A stretch of 64,000 nucleotides of DNA, from assembly GCF_940670685.1 (NCBI RefSeq), contig NZ_OW711693.1, forward strand, positions 434,001-498,000, written 5' to 3'. The stretch comes from Anaeropeptidivorans aminofermentans. GTDB lineage: Bacteria > Bacillota > Clostridia > Lachnospirales > UBA5962. A model generated the notes under the pieces. The model was not told the DNA's origin. It saw nothing but the letters and a program-made list of their open reading frames with translations, and did not search any database. The translations under genes and the position numbers were made by a program. Every line of letters starts with the position of its first letter. The stretch's first letter is position 1. This document shows positions 4,176 through 8,872 of this stretch, in pieces.

Positions 4176-4203
4176 TTGACAAAATAAAGCCTAATTGTAT
4201 AAT
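4176..4203 (+). promoter_or_regulatory. Promoter of the erm leader
   Basis: A perfect TTGACA (4176-4181) and a perfect TATAAT (4198-4203) are separated by 16 bases. Transcription would start near 4210, about 30 bases before the leader peptide. Confidence 0.85.
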
Positions 4204-4240
4204 AGTAAATATAATTTACTTTTGGAGGATTCATACATCT

Positions 4241-4270
4241 ATGTGTTGTTTTATTCGCATTCGTAAATAA
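4241..4270 (+). CDS. Erm leader peptide MCCFIRIRK
   Basis: A 9-codon reading frame, ATG TGT TGT TTT ATT CGC ATT CGT AAA TAA, begins 12 bases after a GGAGG. Codons 6-8 read Arg-Ile-Arg. The known ErmD-type leader has Arg-Leu-Arg at the same codons 6-8, and this +X+ pattern makes ribosomes stall when a macrolide or ketolide is bound. The peptide is therefore likely to be the drug sensor of the downstream methyltransferase gene: stalling over codons 4-8 would mask a segment that can otherwise pair with bases just before the erm ribosome binding site. The comparison with ErmDL is from memory of that system. Confidence 0.75.
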   Translation: MCCFIRIRK

Positions 4271-4328
4271 GGTGTACAGAATAAGGAAAGTATAGCATAT
4301 ACTACCTTTATTTTTGTATACCTTTTTT
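4269..4328 (+). terminator. Attenuator hairpin between leader peptide and erm
   Basis: A long hairpin starts at the leader stop codon: AAGGTGTACA pairs with TGTATACCTT (one G-U), then AATAAGG with CCTTTATT, then AGTATA-GCA-TATACT at the tip. It is followed directly by TTTTTT, the form of an intrinsic terminator. The leader codons TTTTATTCG (4250-4258) can instead pair with CGAATAAAA (4335-4343) next to the methyltransferase start, which gives competing structures as in attenuated erm genes. Confidence 0.8.
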
Positions 4329-4361
4329 CGACCCGAATAAAATCGAAGAGGTGTATTTTTT

Positions 4362-5156
4362 ATGTCCAAAAATAAAAATAACAGGCAAAATCCGCCTGTT
4401 TGGGTATCTCAGAATTTTTTAACAAGCCACAAAACCATTCAAAGGCTGCTTTCGAAAACAACGATTTCCCATAAAGACCATCTAATTGAAATAGGCCCCG
4501 GAAAGGGCCATACAACAAGTCATCTTATTGAACTATGTAAAAAGGTAACGGCTGTTGAAATAGACAGGAAGCTATATGAAAGGCTTCTTGAAAAGTTCAG
4601 AAACACTAAAAACTTAACCTTATATAATCATGATTTTCTTCAATGGAATCTGCCTTCTGCCGGAGGGTATAAAGTTTTTTCAAACATTCCCTTCTGTCAT
4701 ACAACGGCAATTATCCATAAGCTTACGGATAATAAAAACCCCCCGAAAGAAACATGGCTTATAATGGAAAAGGGCGCTGCCAAAAGATTTTCAGGGAAGC
4801 CTTGTGAAAGCCAAAAATCTCTTATGTTGAAGCCGTTTTTTGATATCGACATTATTTATCATTTTCTCCGCGACGATTTTCACCCTAAACCAGGGGTTGA
4901 TGTTGTTATGATTTATTTAAAGAAAAAAGAGCGGCCGGATATCATGCCTGCCCAAAAGAAACTATATAAAAAATTTATTGAAAAAGCTTATGAAAATAAA
5001 GGCTCGGGTTTGCGCAGGCTCTTTACAAAAAAGCAATTAACACGGGCTTTTAAAGAAGCGGGGCTTAACGAATTTTATTCAGGTGAAATCCTCTATGTGC
5101 AGTGGCTTTGCCTTTTTCGATGCTATTGCAAATATGTTCTTTCCATTAGAGAATAA
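4362..5156 (+). CDS. erm: Erm-type 23S rRNA (adenine-N6) methyltransferase
   Basis: The 264-residue protein is a KsgA/Erm-fold methyltransferase that would dimethylate A2058 of 23S rRNA and give macrolide-lincosamide-streptogramin B resistance. Motif X (SQNFL, 16-20), SAM motif I (EIGPGKG, 43-49), the acidic motif II (VEIDRK), motif IV NIPF (108-111), the block MEKGAAKRF (135-143) and FHPKPGVD (173-180) are all present. MEKGAAKRF and the lack of a KsgA-type C-terminal domain favour Erm, near the ErmD/ErmK group, over KsgA. The attenuator leader with a short peptide directly upstream supports this. The spacing from an AGAGGTG ribosome binding site fits the chosen start. It is monocistronic, between two terminators. 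No transposase or recombinase flanks it, so there is no direct sign of recent mobility. Confidence 0.88.
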   Translation: MSKNKNNRQNPPVWVSQNFLTSHKTIQRLLSKTTISHKDHLIEIGPGKGHTTSHLIELCKKVTAVEIDRKLYERLLEKFRNTKNLTLYNHDFLQWNLPSAGGYKVFSNIPFCHTTAIIHKLTDNKNPPKETWLIMEKGAAKRFSGKPCESQKSLMLKPFFDIDIIYHFLRDDFHPKPGVDVVMIYLKKKERPDIMPAQKKLYKKFIEKAYENKGSGLRRLFTKKQLTRAFKEAGLNEFYSGEILYVQWLCLFRCYCKYVLSIRE

Positions 5157-5407: not shown

Positions 5408-5833
5408 TATAGTAAAATAGTTTAATTATAGTAACAAAAACCGTATATTTTGAGTGGCTTAATATAAGTGCTTCTATTATATTAGGCCGTTTATGAAAAA
5501 TGGATTTTTGTTATTACCCTAGGGCGTGTCTGAAAACTCCAAACTCTAGGCTATTTTGCCATAAAACGTGACTTCCTCATCGGAAATACTCAAAATAGCA
5601 CCGCTATTTCTGCGTTTTTCTTCTCAGAATTTTTGCTTCGCAAAAATCACGCTGCGCGTGACCGGACTTCTTTCCGGTTCCATTCGAATTCACATTTTCT
5701 TGCAAACAATACTTTTTCAGCTTGCAAGCTGAAAAATGTATCTCTGCTGTAAAATGATAAATAAACTTTAGTTTATTTATCATTCTTGTCGGTTTGACCG
5801 TTTTCAGACACTGCCTAAGGATATTTTACTATA
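5408..5833. mobile_element. Family B foldback element (B1) split by a family A insertion
   Basis: The left part (5408-5519) starts TATAGTAAAATAG and reads through the family B block (..AACAAAAACCGTATATTTTG..GGCTTAATATAAG..); the right part (5818-5833) ends TATTTTACTATA. Intact B copies elsewhere are about 125-130 bp, so the 300-bp interruption is an insertion. The rest of 5157-6124 has no gene. Confidence 0.8.
5520..5817. mobile_element. MITE-like family A element (A1), inserted in B1
   Basis: A 298-bp element bounded by TA on both sides, with imperfect terminal inverted repeats GGGCGTGTCTGAAAAC (left) and the complement of GGCAGTGTCTGAAAAC (right). Inside are several perfect palindromes, such as TTTTTCAGC/GCTGAAAAA and AATAAAC..GTTTATT. 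Removing it with one TA restores a normal family B sequence, which identifies TA as the duplicated target. Confidence 0.85.
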
Positions 5834-8288: not shown

Positions 8289-8291
8289 TAC

Positions 8292-8375
8292 TGCAGTAGA
8301 CAGGACTTGAACCTGCACGAGTTTGACCTCACAAGATCCTTAGTCTTGCGCGTATGCCAATTCCGCCACTACTGC
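8292..8375 (-). tRNA. tRNA-Leu with anticodon AAG
   Basis: The minus strand folds into a complete cloverleaf: acceptor GCAGTAG/CTACTGC with discriminator A, D arm GTGGCGGAATTGG, anticodon stem CAAGA/TCTTG around the loop CTAAGGA, the long variable arm of class II tRNAs, and the T arm GCAGGTTCAAGTCCTGT. The long variable arm and A discriminator fit leucine. The anticodon AAG reads CUU and, if A34 is deaminated to inosine, CUC as well. CCA is not encoded. Confidence 0.95.
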
Positions 8376-8872
8376 ATATTTATTGTTGTTTGCTGCAACA
8401 AGATGTATTATAATATCTTTGTATGGGTTTGTCAATAAAAAAATTTAAAAAATTTGTTTGCGTATTGACTTTGATTTTGAAGAGAAAAGACCTCAATAAA
8501 AACGACATTTGTTTTAATAATTTTTATAAACAGGAGCGTCTATATTTACAATATCAAAGTTTAAAGACCTAAAGCCATAGCATATTTGCAATAAATGCCT
8601 TTCTAAGCATAATTTGGAAATAAGCCTTTCGATGAAGAGAAAAACAGTATTTTTTTACCGGTTTTATGCTTAATACTTGGAGAATAAATACATTAATCTA
8701 AGAGCCGTATTCTTTATAACATATGAAGAAAAAACTTGCATATGTTTAGCAAACTTGATAAACTATAATGACGTAAACTATGATAGGATAGAGGCAATTA
8801 ATTTGCATCTTAAAATTAAAATTGCCATAAAAAACTAAAACAGAGTTATACAATATAGAGAGGTGTGCCTTA
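8376..8872 (+). other. Intergenic region upstream of secA
   Basis: About 500 bases without a convincing gene. The sequence is AT-rich. A TATAAT at 8764-8769 is the best candidate -10 element for secA, but no -35 is found at the normal distance (a TTGCAT lies 22 bases upstream). I see no strong hairpin and no known riboswitch pattern. Confidence 0.4.

Follow-up and report, generated by a model that had tools for sequence, protein, structure and literature searches.

A predicted macrolide-sensing leader-peptide attenuator of tlrB type upstream of an erm gene in Anaeropeptidivorans aminofermentans

Upstream of an erm gene of Anaeropeptidivorans aminofermentans lies what we consider likely to be an attenuator in which a leader peptide senses macrolides and controls an Erm methyltransferase; its layout is that of the tlrB attenuator of B. 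subtilis. It is very likely that the leader device is real, and the leader probably halts ribosomes under macrolide, switching erm on. The attenuator is of a kind already known; to judge by our searches of open-access literature, what is new is an Erm lineage that combines RIR leaders with a nested attenuator of the tlrB type.

Results

Anatomy of the erm leader region

In the window (the whole stretch of DNA that was analysed, 64,000 nt), the erm gene is preceded on the forward strand by a predicted promoter, TTGACA-16-TATAAT (4176..4203), with 12 of 12 consensus bases. Downstream of it the leader Shine-Dalgarno sequence (SD), GGAGG (4226..4230), stands before a nine-codon frame, MCCFIRIRK (ATGTGTTGTTTTATTCGCATTCGTAAATAA, 4241..4270), which runs from the ATG at 4241 to the TAA at 4268-4270 and whose R6-I7-R8 forms a +X+ motif. 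Judged by its sequence, this is a putative +X+ macrolide-arrest leader, that is, a short SD-led R/K-x-R/K frame conserved upstream of a macrolide-resistance gene. A sequence-only reading of this DNA had pointed out the promoter and the frame, together with a large terminator hairpin starting at the leader stop codon, and all three are present: the predicted terminator, P3 (4269..4328), pairs 4269-4286 with 4306-4324 and carries a run of six T at 4323-4328. P3 was omitted by a pattern scan, its stem and loop lying beyond the size limits of that scan.

The 91 nt between the leader stop codon and erm hold one long hairpin. The minimum-energy fold is a single rod, with helix P1 outermost, followed by P2 and then by the terminator from 4269/4324 inward. 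In P1, the sequence AUACAUCU (4233..4240), located between the leader SD and the leader ATG, pairs with the erm SD (4348..4356, comprising GAGG at 4348-4351 and the P1 3' arm at 4349-4356). P2 pairs leader codons 3-6 (4248..4257) with 4334..4343. The same reading had proposed an alternative pairing between codons 4-6 and the erm start region; the helix exists, but its partner lies directly upstream of the erm SD rather than at the erm start. Nor is it an alternative to the terminator, since P2 is nested around it and the two coexist in the minimum-energy fold. The region 4209-4375 folds at -49 kcal/mol, as compared with a mean of -25.7 (s.d. 3.4) for 200 shuffled sequences, none of which was as low (z = -6.8).

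A second Arg-Ile-Arg frame with a GTG start, (M)YRIRKV, is found at 4272-4295, in the terminator stem just past the leader stop. It is absent from all other members of the 33-locus set described below, and is probably due to chance. A known Rfam family at the attenuator was considered and rejected; the only gathering-level Rfam match of the window is a tRNA at 8292-8375. A tRNA gene search of the window likewise gave a single gene, a tRNA-Leu (anticodon AAG) at 8291-8376 on the reverse strand. Downstream of erm there is an element of about 290 bases (approximately 5522-5816) with inverted ends, GTGTCTGAAAAC (5526-5537) and GTTTTCAGACAC (5800-5811). The stretch 5500-5760 of this element has 52 matches in the genome, including itself and a few reverse-strand self matches, and the element looks like a member of a MITE-type repeat family.

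The erm gene and its relatives

The gene at 4362..5156 (forward strand, 264 aa) is assigned to the Erm 23S rRNA methyltransferases by a curated model: its product scores 232.8 bits against the broad NCBIfam Erm model NF000499 (cut-off 212), and scores far under the respective cut-off of each of the named NCBIfam Erm models listed. Its best PDB match is the ErmC' structure. The top relative in a plasmid collection is 40.6% identical, and the search of viral contigs found none. A homologue elsewhere in the same genome, 30% identical, is probably the housekeeping KsgA/RsmA.

Protein searches yielded 33 Erm-like loci including the window, with L003, a KsgA-like gene, left out of the count. These fall into a near group, consisting of the window and 20 loci at 46-64% identity (n=21), and a remote group (n=12) at 36-40%. 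Within the family of the window, one of seven genomes has the gene. In a tree of 32 rows (L026 and L028 omitted), where strong support is lacking for most inner branches (9 of 28 are starred), the rows closest to the window belong to other families; moreover, L015 and L016 come from different families and share one and the same protein and leader. The simplest reading of these two observations is that erm has moved between lineages.

A nested fold with a covarying leader helix

Single-sequence folds of 20 loci at fixed thresholds contained the terminator (at least 10 minimum-energy pairs) in 19 loci, P2 in 18, P1 in 16, and all three helices in 15; L011 has the peptide and lacks the nested fold. 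The helix between the leader and the pre-SD segment, P2, covaries. When P2 partners were swapped among 16 loci, cognate pairs had a mean of -11.99 as compared with -8.93 (s.d. 0.60) for shuffled ones, and none of 20000 shuffles, which do not allow for kinship of the loci, was as low. For P1 the same test is weak because the helix is almost invariant, and 188 of 20000 shuffles were as low. The swap test was run without L005, L009 and L011 (long inserts or another layout) and without L016, whose leader and protein are the same as those of L015.

We also built a 14-row model alignment, without L004, L005, L006, L009, L011 and L016. Its P1 columns are 91.8% paired, and it contains 20 pairs changed on both sides, as compared with 13.6 (s.d. 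2.1) after shuffling (4 of 500 as high) and with 8-16 on slid structures, in an alignment that puts part of P2 wrongly, so that P2 cells pair only 52% there. The covariance model made from these rows gave held-out scores of 82.0 bits for L004, 80.9 for L047, 68.7 for L006, 44.6 for L009, 34.4 for L032 and 28.8 for L005; among the sequences given to it, L011 and nine remote Erm loci went unreported, and L016 and L026-L028 were left out of this test.

The tlrB terminator likewise lies in an SD-sequestering hairpin, the published account identifying no overlapping antiterminator; the stalled ribosome is taken to keep the terminator as well as the SD-sequestering hairpin from forming, with a NusG-dependent pause that keeps polymerase and ribosome in step (PMC6851288). 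As modelled, the window appears to follow this plan, with a terminator within an SD-sequestering hairpin and conserved helices free of a competing antiterminator.

This bears on a switch of the ermK type, in which stalling would let an antiterminator form and compete with the terminator. The window shares with ermK, which has been reviewed as a terminator/antiterminator transcriptional attenuator (PMC5418344), an Erm gene, a leader peptide and a terminator; the gene family is the same, the leader is of the +X+ type, and the 3' arm of the terminator can pair with the erm SD once a ribosome blocks the 5' arm. However, that competing pairing would hide the SD and not help expression, and P1, P2 and P3 coexist, none of them excluding another. 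Compared with the published descriptions, on which our comparison with the ermD and ermK RNAs is based throughout, no antiterminator is seen among the conserved helices of the window type. A terminator/antiterminator switch was therefore rejected for these mutually compatible helices; one that forms only on ribosome-bound RNA, and with it an ermK-type attenuator, appears unlikely.

Modelled effect of a ribosome stalled at codon 7

To the tlrB-type fold we applied static folding, placing a ribosome with an assumed footprint of 4244-4275 so that codon 7 was in its P site; this model ignores ribosome bulk and timing. In the window, such a ribosome reduces pairing of the terminator 3' arm from 0.98 to 0.32 and changes the terminator energy from -23.9 to -9.9 kcal/mol. 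Terminator pairing drops by at least 0.2 in 11 of 20 loci, a count in which the T-run was picked automatically and is wrong or doubtful in several; in L004-L006, which have longer leader ends, the codon-7 ribosome is without effect on it. With regard to a NusG-dependent pause of the tlrB kind, the motif TTNTTT occurs near the terminator in 10 of 16 loci (5.1 expected), being in part the terminal T-run itself.

Static folding does not support release of the erm SD by the codon-7 ribosome, either in the window or in the mean over 20 loci. In the window, opening the SD costs 8.6 kcal/mol without this ribosome and 9.2 kcal/mol with it; the corresponding means for the 20 loci are 11.3 and 12.4, the cost being lower in only 7, and the probability that the SD is unpaired falls from 0.20 to 0.02. 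Only ribosomes at codons 1-4 make opening cheap in the window (1.8-3.7). This would be explained if the bulk and timing of the ribosome matter, if it is the next ribosome that opens the SD, or if erm is controlled mainly at the level of transcription.

ErmC-type translational attenuators combine a short leader, drug stalling and a hidden SD. The window has the short leader and the hidden SD, and presumably the drug stalling; unlike the ErmC type, which is without a terminator, it has one, as well as another arrest peptide. If the hairpin merely hid the erm SD, and the T-run were no working terminator, control would be purely translational. The near invariance of P1 and the upstream pairing of SD bases in 16 of 20 loci would fit such a device, and ermC-type control is described as being of this sort (PMC5418344), but the window stem is strong and directly followed by six T, a terminator-like stem is present in 19 of 20 loci, and modelled stalling acts on the terminator and not on the SD. 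We regard purely translational control as improbable.

The leader peptide is under selection

By itself, the peptide motif is within chance expectation in 64 kb: the two strands of the real sequence contain 3 SD-led frames of 7-13 codons in which R-x-R starts at codon 5-8, and five shuffled sequences contain 2, 0, 3, 1 and 2. The leader stands out from chance by its position before erm and by the fact that it recurs. We screened 360 nt upstream of the match in all 33 loci for frames of 5-16 codons, by one rule and with no SD filter, and found an R-I/L-R frame in 20 of the 21 near loci, in none of the 12 remote ones, and in 3.5% of 3300 shuffled upstream regions. The near-group leaders include MCASIRIRK (from a Pelotomaculum MAG, L001), MCSIFRIRK, MYGIFRIRK, MIGFARIRK and MSIFIRIRK, and further MPMFIRLR, MIGYIRIR, MGICIIRIR and MYASMRLRK.

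We compared the codons of 20 leaders, namely L047 and 19 erm leaders, the duplicate L016 not being counted. Each of them has both arginines, encoded by 3 and 4 different codons, which argues that the peptide is under selection. The motif starts at codon 6 in 14 of these leaders; between the arginines, 18 have Ile and 2 have Leu. The idea that the window leader is a natural variant testing which residue can sit between the arginines did not hold, Ile being the rule of the lineage and that codon having already been included in a deep mutational scan of ErmDL, which spans codons 2-8 (PMC8298421).

The one near locus lacking a leader is L032 (63% identity), in which the 5' half of the attenuator is replaced by other sequence and the 3' half is kept. 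Having no leader, its gene would be expected to be expressed constitutively, and L032 is possibly a natural constitutive form.

Other frames were seen among the remote loci. In L025-L028 a frame of 14 codons ends in Arg-Val-Arg; it lies upstream of the Erm match, at a distance of 327 nt, and before frames resembling the ErmC leader. L034 has an upstream R-D-R frame. The frames before the remote Erm genes L022 and L024-L028 are ones that we take to resemble the ErmC leader.

It is very improbable that the leader is a chance frame before a constitutive erm: R-x-R is not rare in short SD-led frames and R-x-R frames of other kinds occur near 5 of the 12 remote Erm genes (four of these near-copies), but the division between near and remote loci, the synonymous arginine codons, the covariation, and the confinement of the leader to a single region of the Erm tree (on the 32-row tree, R-I/L-R needs two label changes as compared with 10.0 for shuffled labels) all speak against it.

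Attenuators beyond the near erm loci

In the genome of the window, a search for a second attenuator at E up to 1 returned only the site itself and its own reverse strand, and a search for an RlmA-II partner found no RlmA zinc ribbon at E 0.001. A class-wide scan with the covariance model gave matches in 10 of 391 genomes, three of them weak (L043, L044 and L045). One genome holds a second attenuator copy, L047 (170-1523, reverse strand), whose leader MGIIIRIRK precedes an interrupted erm; the later frame of this erm runs into sequence resembling an APH-family phosphotransferase.

Among the weak matches, L043 is a plain hairpin. L044 (1382, forward strand; leader MSIAFIRLR) and L045 (1512, forward strand; leader MGISFRRLR) each lie before a gene that encodes both a methyltransferase domain and an RlmA zinc ribbon, and their ribosome-binding site, GAGGTGTATTTTT(T)ATG, is very similar to that of the erm attenuator. 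Model matches at E 0.001-0.01 per genome are what chance would give over hundreds of genomes; with scores at that level, we accepted L044 and L045 because of the +X+ leader right before an RlmA gene. Leaders of tlrB homologues are already in print, 180 R/K-x-R/K leaders having been predicted before such genes (PMC6851288), and what our analysis adds is their likeness to the erm attenuator.

An order-wide scan gave matches in 19 of 295 genomes; L091 is the L005 attenuator, 12 others are weak, and L009 and L011 were missed. Nine of the 12 weak matches (those other than L089, L094 and L095) have no R-x-R frame, L085 having a K-x-K frame. RlmA searches gave 42 matches in 196 genomes; the start region was recognised in 29 of the 32 loci examined, and three of the RlmA loci have a leader ending in RLR, namely L044, L045 and L069, the last without a model match.

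Discussion

We propose a nested attenuator that works as follows, inferring its drug dependence, stall site, readthrough, SD release and feedback. Without drug, ribosomes would complete MCCFIRIRK and depart, and the RNA would close as one long hairpin, the inner part ending transcription and the outer part hiding the ribosome-binding site of erm. A macrolide or ketolide in the exit tunnel would stall the ribosome when Ile7 occupies its P site and Arg8 its A site. The footprint of this ribosome (about 4244-4275) would extend over the P2 arm that lies in the leader and over the terminator base, so that RNA polymerase would continue into erm. The stalled ribosome, or the next one on the leader, probably adds to induction by opening the erm SD, and methylation of A2058 would then stop the stalling in a feedback.

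Among known systems, tlrB (yxjB, RlmA-II) is close in several respects. Both leaders have nine residues with R-x-R near the end, and in both the terminator sits within a hairpin that sequesters the SD and takes in the motif codons, without an antiterminator in the published description (PMC6851288). The target gene in each case is an rRNA methyltransferase acting near the macrolide site, and the two peptides have Phe-Ile-Arg-x-Arg in common. They differ in that the window gene is erm (A2058) and tlrB encodes RlmA-II (G748), and in that the middle residue of the motif is Ile in the window, where Lys follows the motif, and Tyr in tlrB. The tlrB leader, MIIQFIRYR, is reported to stall with tylosin and not with erythromycin, with Tyr8 in the P site (PMC6851288).

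The attenuator had been described as ErmD-like, and this is true of the peptide: a leader with Arg-x-Arg precedes an Erm gene, as in ermDL-ermD of Bacillus licheniformis, and Arg-Ile-Arg at codons 6-8 does occupy the positions of Arg6-Leu7-Arg8 in ErmDL, for which +X+ stalling is known experimentally (PMC8298421). It is not true of the RNA, which has the tlrB-type plan, with a 91-nt nested hairpin where the ermDL-ermD intergenic region has 276 nt (PMC8298421). The window leader further differs from ErmDL in having Phe4-Ile5 and in ending at codon 9.

Drug range appears to us the fresher question, as the lineage has both ErmDL-like SMRLR and TlrB-like FIRIR peptides. The near-Erm series extends from L030, which has Ser4-Met5-Arg6-Leu7-Arg8 in common with ErmDL (PMC8298421), to FIRIR in the window and L007 and FIRLR in L008. 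Stalling of ErmDL with telithromycin needs Arg or Lys at positions 6 and 8 and is harmed by some residues at 5, the text of the scan naming harmful changes at residues 5, 6 and 8, spurious ones at 4 and none at 7 (PMC8298421). With erythromycin, as described there, it is residues 4 and 5 on which stalling depends, the arginines having hardly any influence; nearly all changes of Ser4 are harmful to this stalling, Ala and Gly excepted (PMC8298421). Ser stands two residues before the first Arg in 4 of our 20 leaders, and Ala or Gly in none. We predict that the lineage may hold natural alleles of different drug range. A bolder proposal, which we hold only tentatively, is that one horizontally moving nested attenuator, whose likeness is also found before RlmA-like genes, carries a series of peptides from ErmDL-like to TlrB-like, that the residues before the motif set the inducing drugs, and that the window leader, with Phe in place of Ser, Ala or Gly, responds less well to erythromycin than to ketolides and 16-membered macrolides. 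The lineage offers about 20 natural leaders in which Arg is fixed, Ile is almost fixed and the N-termini vary, and these could serve to test which nascent-chain residues decide drug specificity.

The locus brings together, within one conserved lineage, the +X+ erm leaders and the tlrB nested attenuator, which have been studied apart. In addition, it points to Erm genes that fall outside the named Erm models scanned, a group that seems to move between bacterial families together with its switch.
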